Shown here one piece after another: positions 4,963-63,020 of a stretch of DNA of 64,000 bases. Origin of the DNA: Flavobacteriaceae bacterium (GTDB taxonomy: Bacteria > Bacteroidota > Bacteroidia > Flavobacteriales > Flavobacteriaceae); contig JAENXC010000005.1 of assembly GCA_016649715.1 (NCBI GenBank), positions 62,001-126,000 on the forward strand. Reading direction: 5' to 3'. A program made the position numbers and the translations under genes. How positions within the stretch are numbered: the stretch's first letter is position 1; each line of letters opens with the position of its first letter. Under the pieces are notes generated by a model, which was not told where the DNA came from, did no database searches, and was given only the letters and a program-made list of their open reading frames with translations.

Positions 4963-5349
4963 ATGGTACAACAAGTAACACAAGGGATTAAGATTTCGGT
5001 AAAAACCGAGTTTGACGGCACGTTTTACAAAAACCGTAAAATGCAGTACGCCTTTGCCTATACCGTTACTATTGAAAACCAAAGCAAAGACACTGTGCAG
5101 CTCACTGCTCGCAGCTGGAAAATCAAGGATTCCCTCAATAATACAGAAGTCGTGGAAGGCGAAGGAGTAATCGGCCAAAAACCGATATTGCTCCCAGGCG
5201 GAAAACACAGTTATACCAGCGGATGTCTTTTATACTCACCTTTTGGCGCCATGAAAGGTCATTATAATATGGTTAACTTTACAACCACCCGAAAGTTCCG
5301 GGTTTCCATTCCGCTTTTTAATTTGAGCGCACCTTTCTCTATGAATTAG
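4963..5349 (+). CDS. apaG: ApaG (DUF525) protein
   Basis: 128 residues, the usual size of ApaG. The family is a single fibronectin-like beta sandwich; seen here are FAYTVTIENQSKDTVQLTAR, RSWKIKD, VEGEGVIGQKPILLPGG and YTSGC.L.SPFGAMKGHY, all characteristic. ApaG is linked genetically to Co2+ resistance and Mg2+ efflux in enterobacteria, but its biochemical role is unsettled. It follows the DUF3667 gene closely. A GC-rich 25-base element shared with the rodA 3' end starts two bases after the stop codon. Confidence 0.92.
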   Translation: MVQQVTQGIKISVKTEFDGTFYKNRKMQYAFAYTVTIENQSKDTVQLTARSWKIKDSLNNTEVVEGEGVIGQKPILLPGGKHSYTSGCLLYSPFGAMKGHYNMVNFTTTRKFRVSIPLFNLSAPFSMN

Positions 5350-5350
5350 A

Positions 5351-5375
5351 AGCCCCCTAGCCCCCAAAGGGGGAA
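5351..5375. repeat. 25-base element with CCCCC-AAA-GGGGG core, copy 1
   Basis: Begins 2 bases after the apaG stop. It is 24/25 identical to 61743-61767 after rodA. The core CCCCC-AAA-GGGGG can fold into a short GC hairpin, but no T-run follows as in an intrinsic terminator. Confidence 0.75.
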
Positions 5376-5449
5376 CACTCAGTACGCTCTATCAACTAAT
5401 AAATACGAATCAAATTTGCTGAATAAAATCGAAGTCCAGCGTATTGTCT

Positions 5450-5572
5450 TACTAAATACTGAATTACTGCGTAATGATTTACTAAATACTGATTACTGCG
5501 TACTGATTTACTGAATTACTGCGTACTGATATACTGACTACTGCGTACTGAATACTGAATTACTGACCCTTC
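5450..5572. repeat. Degenerate tandem repeat built on TTACTGCGTACTGA
   Basis: About five imperfect units of ~21-23 bases, each with TACTGCGTA(C/A)TGA followed by variants of TTTACTGAA. The array runs into the 3' end of the NRDE gene and supplies its last codons and stop. The 18 bases at 5534-5551 recur exactly at 50859-50876. Spacing and sequence are too irregular for a CRISPR. Confidence 0.8.
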
Positions 5573-6251
5573 CTTTTTGCAAATCTTCATAACGCATTTC
5601 TACGGTTTCTTTATTCTTCACAATTTGGGTAATACTTTTTGTTTTTATGAAACCACGGTCCATAATTAGGTTACTGTTTAAATCTCCTTCGCCTGCGGTT
5701 TTATGGAATTTAAGAATTTCTTCTTCGGAAGGTTTTACCGTTTTAAACAAAAATTCTGAAAACCACTGTTCTCGCTTTTTTTTCAGATTTTCTGGGTATA
5801 ATGGCGAAGAAGACCATATTTGCGTGGCCAAAGGTTCTTCGGAAAAATGATAATCCAAGCCATCCCAAACCAATTGAAACAATTGAACTTCGGTTTTCCA
5901 TTCAACTATAATTGCGGTAAATGGCTCTATTTCGTTGAAATCGTACTTTTCAATTTCCGTTTTCAAATCATCACTTTTCAGCAAATCTTTTACAACCAAA
6001 CCTCTACTCTTTCGGTAAAAAGGTTTGCGCTTGTGGGCAACAAACCCACCGTTCATTAAAGTTACTGCTCTTTTCTTTTCGCTTATCCCAATCCAAGTTC
6101 CTCCCGCAACGCCATCTTTCGGATAAAGCAATTGCACACCTTCCTCTTCATATATTTTTGGCGGAAATGTTTCCCGGCCCGGAGTTTCATCGCGGTTAGA
6201 AGTCAGTATAAAATCGTTGTTGGATTTTGGAATGAAAGTTATAGTACACAT
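5538..6251 (-). CDS. NRDE family protein (TANGO2-like)
   Basis: 237 residues. It begins with Cys2 (MCTITFIP), which is conserved in the family, followed by the name-giving motif as SNRDETPGR, then GGTWIGISEKKRAVTLMNGG. NRDE/TANGO2 proteins occur in bacteria and eukaryotes; the fold resembles N-terminal nucleophile hydrolases, and a role in lipid or haem handling has been proposed for eukaryotic members. The bacterial role is unknown. The last six residues (VFSTQ plus stop) are encoded by a tandem repeat, so the native C-terminus has probably been altered by the repeat. It is a monocistronic minus-strand gene facing apaG. Confidence 0.88.
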   Translation of the reverse strand: MCTITFIPKSNNDFILTSNRDETPGRETFPPKIYEEEGVQLLYPKDGVAGGTWIGISEKKRAVTLMNGGFVAHKRKPFYRKSRGLVVKDLLKSDDLKTEIEKYDFNEIEPFTAIIVEWKTEVQLFQLVWDGLDYHFSEEPLATQIWSSSPLYPENLKKKREQWFSEFLFKTVKPSEEEILKFHKTAGEGDLNSNLIMDRGFIKTKSITQIVKNKETVEMRYEDLQKGRVSNSVFSTQ

Positions 6252-14797: not shown

Positions 14798-15361
14798 ATG
14801 AAGTATTCAATTAAGAATGAAGAAGTAGTTTTCAATGACCACTACAAAATAGTAAAAGCGAACGTAACTTATGACACTTTTGAAGGAAAACAAATAACCA
14901 CCAAACGGCTTGCTTTTGAAAGGGGCGATTCTGTTGCCATTCTATTGCTTGAAAAAGAAACTCAGAGCATTTTATTGACGAACCAATTCCGCTACCCAAG
15001 CTGCAAGAACAACGACGGTTGGATGTTGGAAATTCCCGCAGGTTCCGTGGAAAAAAACGAAAAACCCGAAGATTGCATTGTCCGCGAAGTGATGGAAGAA
15101 TTGGGTTACAAAATAAAAAAGCCAAAGCATATCAGCACCTTTTATACTTCACCCGGAGCTTCAACAGAACGTGTATTTTTATTTTTTTCTGAAGTTTCCC
15201 AAAAAGACAAAACCGAAAAAGGTGGTGGTAACGAAAGTGAAAATGAAGACATACAATTGGTGAAAATCCCCGTTTCAAAAATCAAAATGAAAATGGGGGA
15301 ATTGAAGGATGCAAAAACGATTCTCGCAATCCAATGGTTTCTTTTAGAGGGTAGTGGGTAG
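14798..15361 (+). CDS. Nudix hydrolase (ADP-ribose pyrophosphatase-like)
   Basis: 187 residues. The Nudix box GX5EX7REUXEEXGU is intact (GSVEKNEKPEDCIVREVMEELG), preceded by MLEIPAG, which is typical of the ADP-ribose/NADH pyrophosphatase branch, as is TERVFLFFSE. It hydrolyses a nucleoside diphosphate linked to another moiety in the cytoplasm; the exact substrate cannot be read from sequence. The last residues (EGSG) and stop codon fall in a GGGTAGT tandem repeat, so the C-terminus is repeat-derived. It sits alone between a terminator and the converging rsmG. Confidence 0.9.
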   Translation: MKYSIKNEEVVFNDHYKIVKANVTYDTFEGKQITTKRLAFERGDSVAILLLEKETQSILLTNQFRYPSCKNNDGWMLEIPAGSVEKNEKPEDCIVREVMEELGYKIKKPKHISTFYTSPGASTERVFLFFSEVSQKDKTEKGGGNESENEDIQLVKIPVSKIKMKMGELKDAKTILAIQWFLLEGSG

Positions 15362-15384
15362 TGGGTAGTGGGTAGTGGGTAGTC
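15349..15384. repeat. Tandem heptamer repeat (GGGTAGT)5
   Basis: Five perfect copies of GGGTAGT. The first two provide the last codon and the TAG stop of the Nudix gene. Confidence 0.9.
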
Positions 15385-21524: not shown

Positions 21525-21544
21525 TTAAGAAATTCTTTCAATTT

Positions 21545-21582
21545 AAAAAACCCAAAGCACAAAATGTGCTTTGGGTTTTTTT
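21545..21582 (+). terminator. Intrinsic terminator
   Basis: AAAAAACCCAAAGCACA / TGTGCTTTGGGTTTTTTT hairpin 20 bases after the stop of the 970-residue T9SS protein gene. Confidence 0.92.
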
Positions 21583-21719
21583 ATGAATTCCATTGCCGTA
21601 TTCTTTCCACAAAACAAAGCATGATTAAAATTTGAAATACTCAATGCCCAAAATATTGGTTTCGTTTAAATAGTATACGAAACCTGTTACCTCAAATCTT
21701 GAATATTGAATCGTGAAAC

Positions 21720-23225
21720 CTACCGATTCCTCCAGAAAAACGGCGTAAGCAGAATAAGCACCGTAAACAATTCCAACCTACCAATAAGCATCAAGAAACT
21801 GGACCACCATTTTGCGGCATCGGGCAGATAGGCATAATTGTTCACAGGTCCCAAATCTCCTAAAGCCGGGCCAATATTTCCTAAAGTTGAAGCTGCTCCG
21901 CCAAGCGCCGTTTTAAAATCCAGTCCCAACCAAGAAAAAACCAAAGTACCTATAATGAATGAAAGCATATAAAGAATAAAAAACCCAAGTATATTGAAAA
22001 CAATAGGCTGCGGCACGGCCTTTTTATTGTAACGAACTGGCAAGATAGCGTGCGGATGAAGGGTTCGTTTAAATTCCAACACCCCATTTTTTATCATAAT
22101 TATATGGCGCATTACTTTTATTCCTCCAGCCGTGGAACCCGCACAACCGCCCAAAAACATCATTCCAAAAAAGAAAATGGTCAAAAAGGGCGTCCACAAT
22201 GTATAATCGGCACTCACAAAACCGGTGGTGGTAATAATGGTAAGCACTTGGAAAAGCGAATGGCGGACAGCACTTTCAAAAGGACCCCAAACCATAGGAT
22301 GCGCAATGCTGGAAAGTGTAACATCAGCTTCAAAATAAATCAACAATGCTCCAACAATGGTAAGGCCAACGATAAAAACAGTATATAATCTAAACTCTTC
22401 ATCCTGAAATATTTTCTGAAATTTCCGTTTGAAAGCAAAATAGCTCAACACAAAATTGCTCCCCGCCAAAAACATAAAAACAATGATAATGTACTGCACC
22501 ATTGGTTTATTGTTCCAATAGGCAACACTGGCGTTTTTGGTTGAAAAACCACCCGTACTGAGTGTTGCCAACGAATGATTGATGGCATCGAAAAAACTCA
22601 TTCCGGCCACTTTCAGCAAAATTGTTTCCGCCAAAGTATAGCCCACATATATAAGCCACAACCGTTTTGCGGTATCAGTAATCCTTGGGTGCAGTTTGTC
22701 TCCACCAGGGCCTGGAACTTCGGCTGCGAAGAGCTGCATACCCCCAATACCCAGTAATGGTAAAATTGCAATGGCCAAAACAATAATACCCATCCCGCCT
22801 ATCCAATGTGTAATGCTTCGCCAAAAAAGTACGCCCCGCGGAACACTTTCAATATCAGTTAAAATGGAAGCTCCCGTAGTGGTATAGCCGCTCATCGTTT
22901 CAAAAAAAGCATCGGTAAAACTTGGGATAGCATGGGTGAAAATATAGGGCAACGTACCAATGAGAGCCATAAAAATCCAGCCGAAGGTGACTATAATATA
23001 CCCTTCCCGTTTTTGGATTTCCTTTCGATGGTTTTTGGTCAGCAACATTATAATCCCGCCAACTCCCAAGGCAACAGTGCCCGCCATTATTATTTCTTGC
23101 AGCACACCGTCTTTATAATACCAACTTACAATGGCGGACAGAAGCATAAAACCACCGTTCACCATCAGCAAAAGGCCCATTAAATGCGAAATGATTTTAT
23201 AGTTAAGCTTGGTCAGTGAACTCAT
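21720..23225 (-). CDS. trkH: Trk-type potassium uptake, membrane subunit TrkH
   Basis: 501 residues. Four-fold pseudo-repeat potassium channel subunit. The filter-region motifs are seen in order: TMSGYTTTGAS, LATLSTGGFSTKN, ITTTGFVSADY and ASTLGNIGPALG. About ten membrane spans. It works with the NAD-binding subunit TrkA, encoded immediately upstream; trkA stop and trkH start share one base (TAATG), indicating translational coupling. A short CTTGAAT-type repeat abuts the stop codon. Confidence 0.95.
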   Translation of the reverse strand: MSSLTKLNYKIISHLMGLLLMVNGGFMLLSAIVSWYYKDGVLQEIIMAGTVALGVGGIIMLLTKNHRKEIQKREGYIIVTFGWIFMALIGTLPYIFTHAIPSFTDAFFETMSGYTTTGASILTDIESVPRGVLFWRSITHWIGGMGIIVLAIAILPLLGIGGMQLFAAEVPGPGGDKLHPRITDTAKRLWLIYVGYTLAETILLKVAGMSFFDAINHSLATLSTGGFSTKNASVAYWNNKPMVQYIIIVFMFLAGSNFVLSYFAFKRKFQKIFQDEEFRLYTVFIVGLTIVGALLIYFEADVTLSSIAHPMVWGPFESAVRHSLFQVLTIITTTGFVSADYTLWTPFLTIFFFGMMFLGGCAGSTAGGIKVMRHIIMIKNGVLEFKRTLHPHAILPVRYNKKAVPQPIVFNILGFFILYMLSFIIGTLVFSWLGLDFKTALGGAASTLGNIGPALGDLGPVNNYAYLPDAAKWWSSFLMLIGRLELFTVLILLTPFFWRNR

Positions 23226-24617: not shown

Positions 24618-24632
24618 TATAAATAAAAAGCA

Positions 24633-24690
24633 GTTTTCAGTATTCAGTATTCAGTAGTCAGTGGTCAGTACACAGTAACCAGTATGGTAG
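24633..24690. repeat. Degenerate TTCAGTA/GTCAGTG repeat
   Basis: About seven 6-7 base units: TTCAGTATTCAGTATTCAGT, AGTCAGTGGTCAGT, ACACAGTAACCAGTA. Same family as 6262-6385 and, in reverse complement, 5450-5572 (TACTGAATACTGAATTACTG). Confidence 0.8.
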
Positions 24691-30840: not shown

Positions 30841-30873
30841 GAATCTAAAATCTAACGTCTAAAATCTAAAATC
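30841..30873. repeat. AATCTAA short repeat upstream of accD
   Basis: GAATCTAAAATCTAACGTCT then AAAATCTAAAATCT: four copies of (A)AATCTAA with one variant, ending 5 bases before the accD ATG. It sits where the ribosome-binding region would be. Confidence 0.8.
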
Positions 30874-30878
30874 TTATT

Positions 30879-32734: not shown

Positions 32735-32742
32735 TATTTTTG
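32735..32742 (+). promoter_or_regulatory. Candidate -7 box (TATTTTTG) for rpsO
   Basis: TAnnTTTG match 57 bases upstream of the rpsO start. Confidence 0.5.
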
Positions 32743-32799
32743 CGCCCTTGATTATCAAAACGGTAGTCAGTACATAAAAATCATTTTAATAATATTGGC

Positions 32800-33069
32800 A
32801 TGTATCAATCACAAGAAGTAAAAGAAAAAATTTTTGAAAAACACGGTAAGTCAAAAACCGATACTGGTTCTGCAGAAGGACAGATCGCTTTGTTCACACA
32901 CCGAATCGAGCATTTAACCAAGCACCTTAAAGCAAACCACAAGGACTACAACACAGAGCGTTCTTTGGTAATGCTGGTAGGAAAAAGGAGAGCGCTTTTG
33001 GATTATTTAACCAAAAAAGACGTTCTTCGTTATCGTGCAATCGTTAAAGAATTAGGATTACGTAAGTAA
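32800..33069 (+). CDS. rpsO: 30S ribosomal protein S15
   Basis: 89 residues, the standard length. S15 binds 16S rRNA early in assembly of the 30S platform. Seen: FEKHGKSKTDTGSAEGQIAL, LTKHLKANHKDYNTERSLVM and VGKRRALLDYLTKKD. pnp follows as in most bacteria, but a hairpin and a 181-base gap separate them, so expression is at least partly independent. Confidence 0.98.
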   Translation: MYQSQEVKEKIFEKHGKSKTDTGSAEGQIALFTHRIEHLTKHLKANHKDYNTERSLVMLVGKRRALLDYLTKKDVLRYRAIVKELGLRK

Positions 33070-35509: not shown

Positions 35510-35583
35510 GTTAGGAGTTATGAGTGCAGAGTTAAGATCACTTATAACTCTGAACTCATAACTCCGGACTCATAACTCTGAAC
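35510..35583. repeat. GAACTCATAACTC repeat after pnp
   Basis: GTTAGGAGTTATGAGTGCAG, then CTTATAACTCTGAACTCATA, ACTCCGGACTCATAACTCTG: four units of about 13 bases (ACTC[CT]GGACTCATA types), the first inverted relative to the rest. It lies between the pnp stop and the terminator. Confidence 0.8.
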
Positions 35584-35585
35584 TT

Positions 35586-48219: not shown

Positions 48220-50742
48220 TCAATCAATTTTTGCCGTCCGCAACCGCAGGGCATTAGTAATGACCGATACGGAGCTAAAGCTCATAGCCAAGGCCGCTAT
48301 CATGGGCGACAACAATATCCCGAAAAACGGAAAGAGAACTCCAGCGGCAATTGGCACGCCAAGTGTGTTGTAAATCAATGCGAAAAATAGGTTTTGTTTT
48401 ATGTTGCCCATTACTTTTTCACTTAAATGAAAAGCTTTCACAATGCCGTGCAGATCACCTTTTACCAAGGTTACACCAGCACTTTCAATGGCAACATCAG
48501 TTCCAGTACCCATCGCAATGCCCACATCACTTTTTGCTAAAGCGGGTGCATCGTTTATTCCGTCGCCGGCCATAGCTACTTTTTTACCTTCAGCTTGCAG
48601 TTTTTCAACTACTTCCAGTTTGTCCTGCGGAAGCATTTCAGCTTTAAAATCTGCAAGGTTTAATTCTGAAGCAACAGCTTTTGCAGTGTCGTGATTATCG
48701 CCAGTGAGCATTATAACCTGTATCCCTTTTTTCTGAAGTTCGGCAATGGCTGCTTTACTGTTCTCCTTTATTTTATCAGCAATCACAATATAACCCACAA
48801 CCTTTCCATCCACGGAAAGCATCGGTACGGTTTTACCCTTTTTCTGTTCTTCTGAAATTTCTTTTTGAAGTTCTTGGGAAATGTCCGCTCCTGCTTCTCC
48901 CATCATCTTTTCGTTCCCGAGTGCTGCTTTCTTTCCGTTGATAATTCCAGTAACGCCTTTACCAGTAACTGAATTGAAATCTGTTGTTTTCAACCCCGAA
49001 GCTTCGGGGTCAGTATTCTGTTTCTTTCCATATTTTAAGGTAGCATCGGCTAAAGGATGTTCGCTGTTCTGGTTGAGGGAAACTATATATTGAAGTACTT
49101 TTTCATCTGAAAAATCTTCTGAGGAACCAACTTTTTCTACTGAAGGTTTTCCTTCTGTGATAGTCCCAGTTTTGTCAATTATCAATACATCGATTTTGTT
49201 CAAAGTTTCCAGCGCTTCGGCGTTTTTGATGAGTACGCCATTTTGGGCGCCTTTCCCTACTCCAACCATTACTGACATTGGCGTTGCAAGACCAAGTGCG
49301 CACGGACAGGCAATTATCAAAACCGCAATGGCGTTTACCAAGGCAAATACATATTTTGGCTCAGGACCGAAAACAGCCCACACAATAAAGGTAACCACCG
49401 AAATTAAAACAACAATTGGCACAAACCAGCCCGAGATTTTATCTGCCAATTTTTGGATTGGTGCGCGACTACGGCTGGCTTTGTTTACCATTTCGATAAT
49501 TTGCGAAAGCAGGGTATCGCTACCTATCTTTTCGGCTTTCATCACAAAAGTCTGTTTCCCGTTTATGGTACCGGAGCTTACTTTATCGCCTTCCCTTTTT
49601 GTGACGGGAACGGGTTCGCCGGTAATCATCGATTCGTCAATGGAGCTTTCGCCTTCGAGTATGCTTCCGTCCACAGGGATTTTCTCGCCCGGTTTTACAC
49701 GGAGTTTGTCACCTACTTCTATTTTATCAATCGCTATTGTTTCTTCTTTTCCGTCCACAATCCGCACCGCTTTGTTTGGAGCCAGTTTCAACAATTCCTT
49801 TACTGCGGAATTTGTCCGGTTGTGCGCTCTGGCTTCCAAAACCTGCCCCATTAAAACCAAGGTGAGGATTACCGTAGCTGCTTCAAAATAAACATGCACG
49901 GTGCCCGATTCGGTTTTGAACTGCGGGGGGAAAAAATCTGGAAACAACATCCCAAAAACACTGAAAATCCAAGCCACACCCGCACCAATTCCGATAAGGG
50001 TGAACATATTCAAGTTCCAAGTTTTTATGGATTTATAGGCGCGTTCAAAAAACATCCACGTGGCGTAAAAAACCACTGGAATTGATAAACCGAATTGTAT
50101 CCAGTTCCAATATTTTATCGGCATCCAATCGTACAGTGGATTGTTTGGAATCATTTCAGACATCGCGATTATAAAGATGGGAAAAGTGAAAGCCACTGCG
50201 ATCCAAAACTTGTTCAGCAATTTTTTGTAGGTTTTGTTTTCAGCAGATTCGTCCACTTCCATTGGCACCAAATCCATCCCACAAATTGGGCAGGAACCAG
50301 GCTTATCCCGAACTATTTCGGGGTGCATTGGGCAGGTATATTGGGTTGGAGAGCTGTTTGAAGTTTTCGCCTCTTCCACCAAATCCATTCCGCAGACGGG
50401 ACAATCGCCAGGTTTGTCGTAGGTTTTTTCACCTTCGCAGTGCATTGGGCAATAGAAGGTGCCTGAGCTATTTTGCTTCGCTCTTTTTTCTTCCTTTTTC
50501 ATTTGGTGTTGCTGCGCTGCTTCGGCGTCGTCGGGAAGGGAAATACTGTATTTGCCACCGTCTTCTTCCAAAGCTTTTTGAAAAACATTCAATGGAATAT
50601 GTTTTTCCATTTCAATAACCGCCTCTGCTTTTTCGAGGTTTACCGATGCTTTTGAAACGCCTTCAATTTCGCTTAAAGTTTTTTCCACATGGCCTCGGCA
50701 GCCGTTGCAGGTCATTCCGTGTATTTTATATGTATGTGTCAT
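48220..50742 (-). CDS. copA: Copper-translocating P1B-type ATPase
   Basis: 840 residues. Exports Cu+ from the cytoplasm using ATP. N-terminal HMA domain (GMTCNGC, residues 9-15), two heavy-metal-binding ribbons of the CPMH...CPxCGMDLV type (about 97-122 and 136-160), eight membrane spans with ACPCALG (CPC about residue 480), phosphorylation motif DKTGT (about 520), HP in NSEHPLA, and [10 protein letters not shown]. The double CPMH/CGMDL ribbon is common in Bacteroidota CopA. The same-strand DUF3347 lipoprotein gene lies upstream, suggesting joint copper control. Three tandem-repeat bases-rich patches sit between the two. Confidence 0.95.
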
Positions 50743-50840: not shown

Positions 50841-50880
50841 AACTACTGGCACTGAACGCTGACTACTGCGTACTGATTTC
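50841..50880. repeat. CTGACTACTGCGTACTGA repeat at the DUF3347 3' end
   Basis: Imperfect units AACTACTGGC, ACTGAACGCT, GACTACTGCG, TACTGATTTC. The 18 bases at 50859-50876 are identical to 5534-5551 and supply the stop codon at the same offset. Confidence 0.9.
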
Positions 50881-51411
50881 CGCGTCAACCCTGCCACATT
50901 TCAGCATTTTATCGCCAAAATATGGATTTAAAATATCTTTACTGCTGCTAATCCAATAGGCTCCTTTGTTGTTGAAAGCCATTGGGCAATATTGTTTGTA
51001 AAGTGTGCCAGATTTTAAAGAATCTTTTAGCATAGCTTCAATACCGTTACTAAGGGCTTCAAAATTTTCGCGCTGAACTTTTATATCTTCAGAATTTGCC
51101 ATTGCAGTTATTGCGGTTTGGGTAGCTTCATCGGCGTTCTGCTCTTTTAATAAAAGTCCGAGTTTTGAAGCTTCAGTTGCAGTTTTGATGGCATCGGTAT
51201 TTACCAAACCTGCTTCCACTTGCAAATATTGTTCAAAAATGGCTTTCACTTTTGGGTCGTTAAATTCGGCCTCTGTTTTAGCTACTTCGTATGTTTTTTG
51301 TACTGTATTATCAACCGTTACCACTTCTGGCTCGGTTTGTTTCGCTTTGTCCTTGCACGATGAAACGACGAAGGCTGTAATTGCGAAGAAAATAAGTGCT
51401 GATTTTCTCAT
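50863..51411 (-). CDS. DUF3347 lipoprotein (copper-associated)
   Basis: 182 residues. Lipoprotein: MRKSALIFFAITAFVVSS then Cys19, followed by KDKAKQTE. The DUF3347 domain spans about 50-175 and ends in the conserved YCPMAFNNKGAYWISSSKD and DKMLKCG. Similar domains occur at the end of CusB-type efflux adaptors and near copper systems; Cys, Met and His in the motif may bind Cu+. The last residues (EISTQ) and stop are derived from a repeat, as in the NRDE protein. It lies upstream of copA on the same strand. Confidence 0.82.
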   Translation of the reverse strand: MRKSALIFFAITAFVVSSCKDKAKQTEPEVVTVDNTVQKTYEVAKTEAEFNDPKVKAIFEQYLQVEAGLVNTDAIKTATEASKLGLLLKEQNADEATQTAITAMANSEDIKVQRENFEALSNGIEAMLKDSLKSGTLYKQYCPMAFNNKGAYWISSSKDILNPYFGDKMLKCGRVDAEISTQ

Positions 51412-61767: not shown

Positions 61768-61860
61768 TTGAAATTGAAATTGAAGTTGAAGATGAAGATG
61801 AATTGAAAATGAAGTTTGAAGTTGTGATTTTTTACTGAAAACTGCTACTGAAAACTGCAA
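61768..61860. repeat. TGAAATTGAAGTTGAAGATG/CTGAAAACTG repeat between rodA and the nuclease gene
   Basis: Degenerate hexamer-type units (TGAAAT, TGAAGT, GAAGAT) followed by TACTGAAAACTGC twice. It ends two bases before the nuclease stop codon. Confidence 0.75.
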
Positions 61861-61861
61861 C

Positions 61862-62698
61862 TTATTTCCTTCCCCAAGCCTTTAAATCAATCATTTGTTC
61901 CATTTTATTTTCTATGGAATCTGGCAAATTAGGGAAAAAATCAATTCCTGTTTTGGCTTCAATCTCGTCGATGGAGACTGCGTATTCGTAAAAAGATTCA
62001 CTGGAAGGTTTATTCGGAATTACAAAAGCGATGGCTTTATAATTTCCCTGCCTGCCTGCTGGCACGGCATCGGAAGCATCCACAATTATTTTATAAAATT
62101 CGTTGGGGACTGAAACATTTTCATCGCCGATAGTTTTCATATTTCCTTTTAAAACGCCGCCAGTAACTACATAAACCCCATCGTATTTTTCGGCCCAAAA
62201 GCGCACTTTTTGTTCCAAACGGTTCCAGATTCCGGCATTAAAATCGTGATCCTGCGGGCTGATGTTACTGGTCAAAAAAGTTTCGTTGTAAGCTTCAAAA
62301 GAAATATTTCGGTCACCGGCAGGGCAAAGATGCCCGCGATCATAGCCTGAGTTTTTATAGTTTCGCCAATCGGCGGATTTGGTTTTTACTTTTTTATCTT
62401 CAATAAAATAGGGGCGTTCGAATTCATTTTTTGAAAGATCTTTTCTTTTCAATTCATAAGCTACCCATTCTGCCTGTTCGTCTTTTTCGGAATATGAAAG
62501 TGTGAAAGCATTGTGTTTTGCAATTACACCCGTGGTTGAAGTTGGCAGAAATGAATCATTAAATTCTTCGGAAATGCGCTGTGTTGTATTTGAAGTTTTC
62601 GTAGCTGATTTTTTATCAGTATCTAAGAAATCATCGGCATAATACAACGCAACTGTTACTATAATAATTACTAAAGGGTATATGTATTTTCGGTTCAT
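61862..62698 (-). CDS. DNA/RNA non-specific endonuclease (DRGH type), membrane anchored or secreted
   Basis: 278 residues from ATG 62698 (MNRKYIYPLVIIIVTVALYY); the ORF start at 62737 would overlap the toxin gene. One N-terminal hydrophobic segment, then a beta-beta-alpha-metal nuclease domain with the active site DRGHLCPAGDR (His123) and the metal Asn in FNAGIWNRLEQ (about 154-160). It degrades DNA and RNA in the envelope or outside. Between IIVDASD and NYKAIAFVIPN it carries PAGRQG (213-218), encoded by a CCTGCCTGCC element and not part of the fold. It is the third gene of a minus-strand unit with a TA pair. Confidence 0.88.
   Translation of the reverse strand: MNRKYIYPLVIIIVTVALYYADDFLDTDKKSATKTSNTTQRISEEFNDSFLPTSTTGVIAKHNAFTLSYSEKDEQAEWVAYELKRKDLSKNEFERPYFIEDKKVKTKSADWRNYKNSGYDRGHLCPAGDRNISFEAYNETFLTSNISPQDHDFNAGIWNRLEQKVRFWAEKYDGVYVVTGGVLKGNMKTIGDENVSVPNEFYKIIVDASDAVPAGRQGNYKAIAFVIPNKPSSESFYEYAVSIDEIEAKTGIDFFPNLPDSIENKMEQMIDLKAWGRK
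62046..62068. repeat. CCTGCCTGCCTGCTGGCA element inside the nuclease gene
   Basis: CCCTGCCTGCCTGCTGGCAC on the plus strand, encoding the AVPAGRQG tract in the minus frame. The core is shared with the purH leader element at 54540. Confidence 0.7.
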
Positions 62699-62720
62699 AA
62701 AATATTTTAAAAGAGCATTC

Positions 62721-63020
62721 TTATAAATATTTCTCAAGCTCCTTTGGGCCTTTGGAGTTATTCCAAAATAATTGAAGGTCTATCCGTTTTTTATCCTCAA
62801 AAACTTCATAGAAAACCGTAGTCTGTTTTGAAAGGACAAACATTCTAACTTGTCCTTTTTCAGAAATTTTGCCCATATATGGATTAGAGGAAAGTACTTT
62901 TTTAAATTCATCCACCAAATCGATAAACTTTTCGGCTTCCTTAGTGTTCCACTTTCGCAGAATAAAATCAATTTCTTCCTCGAAAGTTATATCGGCCAAT
63001 GGTGTCCAAAAAACAGTCAT
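62721..63020 (-). CDS. RelE/ParE-family toxin
   Basis: 99 residues of ParE type: MTVFWTPLADITFEEEIDFI then LRKWNTKEAEKFIDLVDEF, NPYMGKISEKGQVRMFVLSK and VFYEVFEDKKRIDLQLFWN, the classical helix hairpin followed by a four-strand sheet. ParE toxins inhibit gyrase; RelE toxins cut mRNA. The start overlaps the antitoxin stop by 4 bases. The nuclease gene follows 22 bases after the stop. Confidence 0.85.
   Translation of the reverse strand: MTVFWTPLADITFEEEIDFILRKWNTKEAEKFIDLVDEFKKVLSSNPYMGKISEKGQVRMFVLSKQTTVFYEVFEDKKRIDLQLFWNNSKGPKELEKYL

Follow-up and report, generated by a model that had tools for sequence, protein, structure and literature searches.

In Xanthomonas and Nostoc, heptamer repeats with the units GGGAATC and GGGGA(T/C)T are, according to the sections of PMC4692102 drawn on here, located preferentially at most 50 bp from stop codons or overlapping them, are under-represented between divergent ORFs and vary between closely related species. 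Direct repeats of the heptamer TAACTGA are reported, in the corresponding parts of PMC4679880, from marine Beggiatoaceae, cyanobacteria and five Bacteroidetes, including A. sublithincola. In addition, a survey of long simple sequence repeats in prokaryotic genomes (Mrazek et al. 2007, as summarized in passages of PMC4679880 and PMC4692102) found heptanucleotides to be the commonest class in most of the genomes surveyed, and proposed polymerase slippage.

The TACTGNN arrays of Aequorivita that we describe here are a new case of this type of repeat, already described in other bacteria. As in the published portions on Xanthomonas and Nostoc (PMC4692102), the unit is 7 bases long and the repeats are found genome-wide, mostly in non-coding DNA and seldom between divergent ORFs, with a strong bias to positions downstream of genes, near or over the stop codon, and generally without association to mobile elements; in those portions, length and sequence also vary between two close species. 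The same portions describe a single type of G-rich, quadruplex-forming unit, whereas Aequorivita has many units, mostly rich in A+T. The likenesses to the TAACTGA repeats, as far as the relevant parts of PMC4679880 describe them, are that these too are direct heptamer repeats which overlap the stop codon at 13 ORF ends, offer stops in all three forward frames, encode protein ends and, in A. sublithincola and Gramella, make up long sets in which other heptamers also occur. However, the unit is a different one, the doubled form of TAACTGA occurring 0 times in the 1.66 Mb of Aequorivita DNA that we sampled, and in the main species of that report the TAACTGA sets lie mostly just upstream of start codons. 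As in the survey of Mrazek et al. 2007, to the extent that it is summarized in the two reports, heptanucleotides are also the commonest class here. No paper with TACTGNN repeats in Aequorivita as its titled subject was found in the literature searched, a body of work that mostly excludes subscription journals. The preliminary description of this DNA knew of no described mechanism for the family; for the general phenomenon this needs amending, since both PMC4692102 and PMC4679880, in the parts cited, describe heptamer repeats that overlap stop codons.

The window, i.e. the whole 64,000-nucleotide stretch of DNA that we analysed, comes from the draft genome of a marine Aequorivita bacterium (3.4 Mb in 71 contigs, 99.86% complete), referred to below as the source genome. 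Two identical copies of the 18-mer CTGACTACTGCGTACTGA are present in it, and on the minus strand, where it reads TCAGTACGCAGTAGTCAG, each copy supplies the TAG stop codon and the S-T-Q terminus of a gene (Table 1), so that the TANGO2 protein (previously named the NRDE protein) ends FSTQ and the unrelated DUF3347 protein ends ISTQ. These points were correctly recognized in the preliminary description, which also drew attention to the equal offset of the stop in the two copies. The offset is indeed equal, but both it and the tail are forced: of the three minus-strand frames of the 18-mer, a single one (AGT ACG CAG TAG) contains a stop, therefore any gene that ends inside it ends S-T-Q. The copy at TANGO2, moreover, is a piece of a longer, irregular heptamer-like array.

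Table 1 Features of the window that bear on the two S-T-Q termini
Feature	Position	Strand	Basis or remark
Irregular heptamer-like (TACTGNN) tandem array	5449-5567 (about)		TRF; core 5532-5560 passes the period-7 scan
18-mer copy 1, within the array	5534-5551	+	Sequence identity
TANGO2/NRDE gene; stop TAG 5538-5540 and terminal S-T-Q in the array	5538-6251	-	ORF, PF05742
TAGTGGG heptamer array holding the stop of the + strand gene 14798-15361; other unit, same situation	15345-15383		TRF, scan
Further TACTGNN-family array (CAGT sense), between divergent genes	24631-24684		18-mer match search, period-7 scan
Heavy-metal P-type ATPase gene	48220-50742	-	HYC_CC_PP gene between ATPase and DUF3347 in five relatives read, missing here
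Second heptamer array (TAGATGT/TAGATGG), DUF3347-ATPase gap, separated by about 4 nt from the next gene's start codon	50746-50805		TRF, period-7 scan
18-mer copy 2, remnant of two to three TACTGNN-family units, below the array threshold	50859-50876	+	Identity, period-7 scan
DUF3347 gene; stop TAG 50863-50865 and terminal S-T-Q in the repeat	50863-51411	-	ORF, PF11827

We consider it probable, at roughly 0.8, that both S-T-Q ends are explained by heptamer arrays that are born by slippage, are sometimes copied and are tolerated between genes and over last codons. Such arrays would arise and lengthen by slippage or by small duplications of 7 bases, would occasionally be copied from one locus to another by gene conversion or template switching, and would persist where they do not spoil coding, namely between genes and over the last few codons. 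In the sense of the gene the unit reads TANNCAG, which gives TAA or TAG whenever its third base is A or G, and as 7 is not a multiple of 3, a frame that enters an array soon meets a stop. Where a duplication or deletion takes away the native stop, the array would then provide a new one together with a short repeat-coded tail, and with a single stop frame in the 18-mer that tail is S-T-Q. The coincidence of the two termini would in this way reduce to frame arithmetic and repeat biology.

Both 18-mers are fragments of a heptanucleotide repeat family (TACTGNN) that is scattered over the intergenic DNA of the source genome. At up to three mismatches the 18-mer has 7 matches in the window, against none in any of 100 shuffles, and 133 in the whole genome, where the reversed pattern gave 6; many of the 133 are concentrated in a few long arrays. 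When 59 genomes were searched for CTGANTACTGNNTACTGA, it was found in the source genome, in 18 of 27 relatives of the same genus, in 1 of 8 genomes from other genera of the family and in 0 of 23 from other families; two relatives (G015 and G016) have 0 matches, yet carry many heptamer arrays. Period 7 was the commonest tandem-array period in all five Aequorivita genomes sampled, with 63 arrays in 864 kb of the source genome and, in segments of 200 kb, 6 in G001, 9 in G002, 9 in G015 and 21 in G016, and units of 7 bases thus exceed both other periods and chance, one Markov resample per segment giving 0 or 1 such array. Outside the genus, heptamers were not clearly in excess in a non-random sample of 408,092 bases from 64 loci that surround DUF3347 relatives, where period 7 was represented by 6 arrays, period 15 by 7 and period 12 by 5.

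Merging the arrays of period 7 or 14 in the five genomes gave 134, of which 2 lie inside ORFs, so the arrays are mostly non-coding. Removal of these 2 and of 2 more without clean neighbours left 130 for comparison with gene ends, a set in which genes are crudely called (longest ORFs), one gap may hold several arrays and decayed arrays under the threshold are left out. Few of the arrays lie between divergent genes (11/130, compared with 180 of the 929 gaps of at least 40 nt). Two draft contigs of the source genome start inside long heptamer arrays (C42:1-117, site L020, and C25:1-100), and the counts are therefore probably too low for the longest arrays.

Stop codons of unrelated genes are overlapped by 26 of the 130 arrays, and start codons by 11. 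Random placement of each array in its own gap predicted 9.8, 15.2, 19.1, 22.1, 26.9 and 27.3 stop overlaps when entry into the gene was allowed for 5, 10, 15, 20, 30 and 45 nt respectively, and from 7.7 to 22.8 start overlaps; for the source genome alone, 13 stop overlaps compare with 16.4 expected at 30 nt. Because the expectation depends on the coding overlap that the null allows, stop overlap per se is not clearly in excess, and it does not support the proposal that a mobile unit captures the 3′ ends of genes. The depth reached into the gene, stop included, is at most 9 nt in 18 of the 26 overlapping arrays and 17 to 49 nt in the other 8. Among 16 ACTG-family sites examined, which are part of those in the source genome, 7 have a stop in the array or within 5 nt of it, and S-T-Q ends are found only at the 2 window sites.

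The position of the array edges is another matter. Edges lie flush with the stop (-5 to +10 nt) at 41 of 139 stop-facing sides, where the two nulls predict 21.0 or 13.1, an excess reached in 0 of 2000 simulations under either; for starts the same interval holds 27 of 121 start-facing sides against 16.6 or 10.7 expected, reached in 6 or 0 of 2000. Per genome, the stop-side counts are 22/79 in the source genome and 2/9, 7/16, 3/11 and 7/24 in the other four, whereas the start-side counts are 22/69 in the source genome and 5/52 in the other four together, which makes flush starts a feature of the source genome. This flush-edge excess is not predicted by plain slippage and counts against the explanation that we prefer. 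Aequorivita, which combines numerous sequenced species with many units of a single length, would be well suited to testing why array edges stop flush at coding boundaries, and also why 7 is a favoured length of repeats in bacteria.

Flush placement at stops, and at starts in the source genome, would be expected if the arrays were kept for a function at gene ends, be it the end of transcription, a frame-independent translation stop or a binding site for a regulator, and the near-absence of arrays from ORFs (2/134) and the somewhat commoner G+T-rich orientation past stops (above 0.5 on the gene strand in 27 of the 52 flush arrays, against a background of 34%) point the same way. We nevertheless regard such a function as unlikely. 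The two window regions fold little better than their shuffles (z of -1.67 and -1.18), 13 and 26 of 200 shuffles folding at least as well, which gives no support to a terminator; the units differ between the source genome and G001 at two gaps that hold arrays in both (15345-15383 and 30842-30874); and no regulatory role is identified in the cited sections on the Xanthomonas case (PMC4692102). Of the 34 arrays flush with starts, 8 are rich in G/T when read on the gene strand, against a background of 30%. A strand rule was judged weak and was not built upon. We also rejected the stop codon as the seed of arrays: the 46 arrays at -9 to +12 nt from a stop have in-phase stop triplets at a rate of 0.157 against 0.065 (5/5000 permutations), but the 21 that start 0-5 nt past the stop have a rate of 0.048, inside the range of the other phases, and the signal stems from arrays already covering the stop. 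Elsewhere in the window, a repeat of TACTGAAAACTGC at 61833-61862 lies directly past the TAA of the minus-strand gene 61862-62737.

When the 7 window arrays were compared with G001, an array was present in the matching G001 gap for 3 of them, the two just named with different units and a third (35540-35584) with the same unit family, and for 4 there was none, so that some gaps seem, from this comparison, to host arrays repeatedly.

At DUF3347 the terminus itself has clearly changed. Among the 26 relatives compared (G003 has no DUF3347 match), 25 end in E/K-[IVL]-x-stop (EVK, EIK, EIN and similar), G006 ends EISGQ and the source genome EISTQ, and the repeat stands where those 25 have their last residue and stop, so at this gene the earlier claim that the repeat resets the stop holds. 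A terminator-like hairpin, judged by eye, follows the stop in about 16 of the 26 and is absent, for example, from G001, G012 and G022. In the five relatives that we read (G004, G006, G013, G024 and G001), DUF3347 is separated from the P-type ATPase by a gene of about 138 codons, followed in G024 by further genes, and this gene encodes a HYC_CC_PP family protein (NF047658). With the G013 protein as the query, a close copy is present in 27/27 relatives (53-100% identity) and, by coordinates, is no more than 1.2 kb away from DUF3347 in each of the 26 relatives in which both occur. The source genome has only HYC_CC_PP copies of 28-29% identity, located elsewhere, and its DUF3347-ATPase gap of 120 bases contains an ACTG remnant and the TAGATGT array. 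In the source genome the native DUF3347 stop and the neighbouring HYC_CC_PP gene, whose loss is read from one draft assembly without reads, are gone and the repeat supplies the stop. Just past the native DUF3347 stop, G001 and G025 have CAGT-like sequence and G001 also has a TAGATG-bearing stretch, so both repeats of the gap have plausible local precursors. As to the order of events, we infer that the native stop was removed and then replaced from the array. This is a documented case in which a short repeat changed a protein end where a conserved neighbouring gene was lost. It is doubtful, however, that it can be generalized to heptamer arrays as a recurrent source of new stops and C-termini, lying flush with gene ends, spreading as composites and rescuing genes like DUF3347.

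The DUF3347 gap, which lacks a gene kept in 27/27 relatives and holds two types of repeat, is also what would be expected if arrays were scars of gene deletions, the break having been rejoined or filled within heptamer repeats and the upstream gene fused to the array. The gap 21525-21719, with a heptamer repeat where G001 has an extra ORF, could be read likewise. However, four other window gaps with extra ORFs in G001 have no period-7 array, and 5 of the 7 window arrays lie in gaps of unchanged gene order, which makes deletion scars quite improbable as the general origin. The repeat in the gap 21525-21719, of AATCTTG at 21695-21717, is separated by 2 nt from the stop codon of gene 21720-23225 on the minus strand.

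At TANGO2 the tail after MRYEDLQ is variable among the 28 genomes. None of the 27 relatives of the genus is near-identical to the source genome, the best TANGO2 identity being 86%. In several of 12 genomes inspected, the codons before the repeat resemble ATC AGT AAT TCA GTA TTC (I-S-N-S-V-F), a stretch already reminiscent of two to three heptamer units, and G007 has three heptamer-like units inside the TANGO2 frame and no array after it. Such repeat-like codons in relatives without an array make local growth likely, and from these alignments the TANGO2 array appears either to have grown out of the end of the gene itself or to be what is left of an older array. Other relatives end FSTH (G012), FSTG (G013) and FSTQ (G027), with short or degenerate repeats, or INTQ (G024). 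The FSTQ end of G027, with a few degenerate units and no array above threshold, partly undercuts the earlier view that the S-T-Q terminus depends on the repeat. A single origin of the S-T-x tail is not supported, since the five species with F-S-T-x or N-T-Q ends (G000, the source genome, with G012, G013, G027 and G024) fall into no single supported group: a 26-row tree built from two joined proteins, G003 and G007 being left out, pairs G027 with G011 and G012 with G022, and groups G024 with G017 and G005, all of these partners being without the tail. On the other side of TANGO2, G001 has an array of the CAGT type. Between the TANGO2 array of the window and the plus-strand gene 4963-5349, just past the stop of the latter, the window has a G/C-rich near-palindrome (GCCCCCTAGCCCCCAAAGGGGG, 5352-5373), and runs somewhat like it follow DUF3347 in G012 and G022.

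Local growth does not account for everything, as arrays at different loci have sequence in common. The composite TACTGCGTACTGA has 12 exact matches in the source genome, in about 10 separate arrays, with 0 for the reversed control, and is present in 10 of the 27 relatives. Sites L001 and L005 have 34 identical bases of irregular units in common. Exact units are shared by 82 pairs of arrays against a null mean of 24.7 (maximum 55), with units drawn from array-free gaps; at up to one mismatch the 503 pairs (null mean 381.6, maximum 529) are not a clear excess. Exact sharing and common composites mean that purely local birth is not the whole story, and ectopic copying between arrays is likely on these sequence comparisons.

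Identical composites at unlinked sites, together with array edges flush with stops and one gene for a transposase of the Y1 family that we searched for (C51:87447 of the source genome), might also be taken as signs of a mobile repeat (REP/RAYT-like or a MITE) that an enzyme of its own carries to the 3′ ends of genes, where it resets the stop. We find this very unlikely. Across 17 sites, 16 from the source genome and one from G024, homology essentially ends with the repeat: matches of at least 28 bases fall in repeat sequence, the exceptions being L018 and L019, two overlapping stretches from a single region, and a few weak matches, e.g. one of 28 bases that L004 shares with L011. No termini shared beyond the repeat were seen at these 17 sites. 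The 134 arrays have 89 different modal units, and a search of phage and plasmid collections, run with the low-complexity filter, gave no match to positions 5400-5600. A transposable unit is not indicated by these comparisons, and of the mobile or recombining repeat first proposed, some copying between loci is likely, whereas a mobile unit aimed at gene ends is not supported. Chance identity of the two 18-mers, for which their shortness might speak, is refuted by the shuffled and reversed controls given above.

For the favoured explanation, birth by slippage, the pair G005/G017 (about 90% identical, with 4 and 5 arrays in 200 kb) is an unfavourable comparison: one array is identical in both, the remainder are missing or unplaceable in the partner, and no whole-unit change in length was seen in this one pair. 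Neighbouring arrays at C34:44284-44349 (L140) and C7:84507-84575 (L156) of the source genome, and at C1:147266-148013 (L205) of G015, resemble mutual reverse complements and could form long hairpins. In the window, the sole Rfam match at gathering score is an S15-Flavobacteria ribosomal protein leader (RF03161) at 32735-32802.
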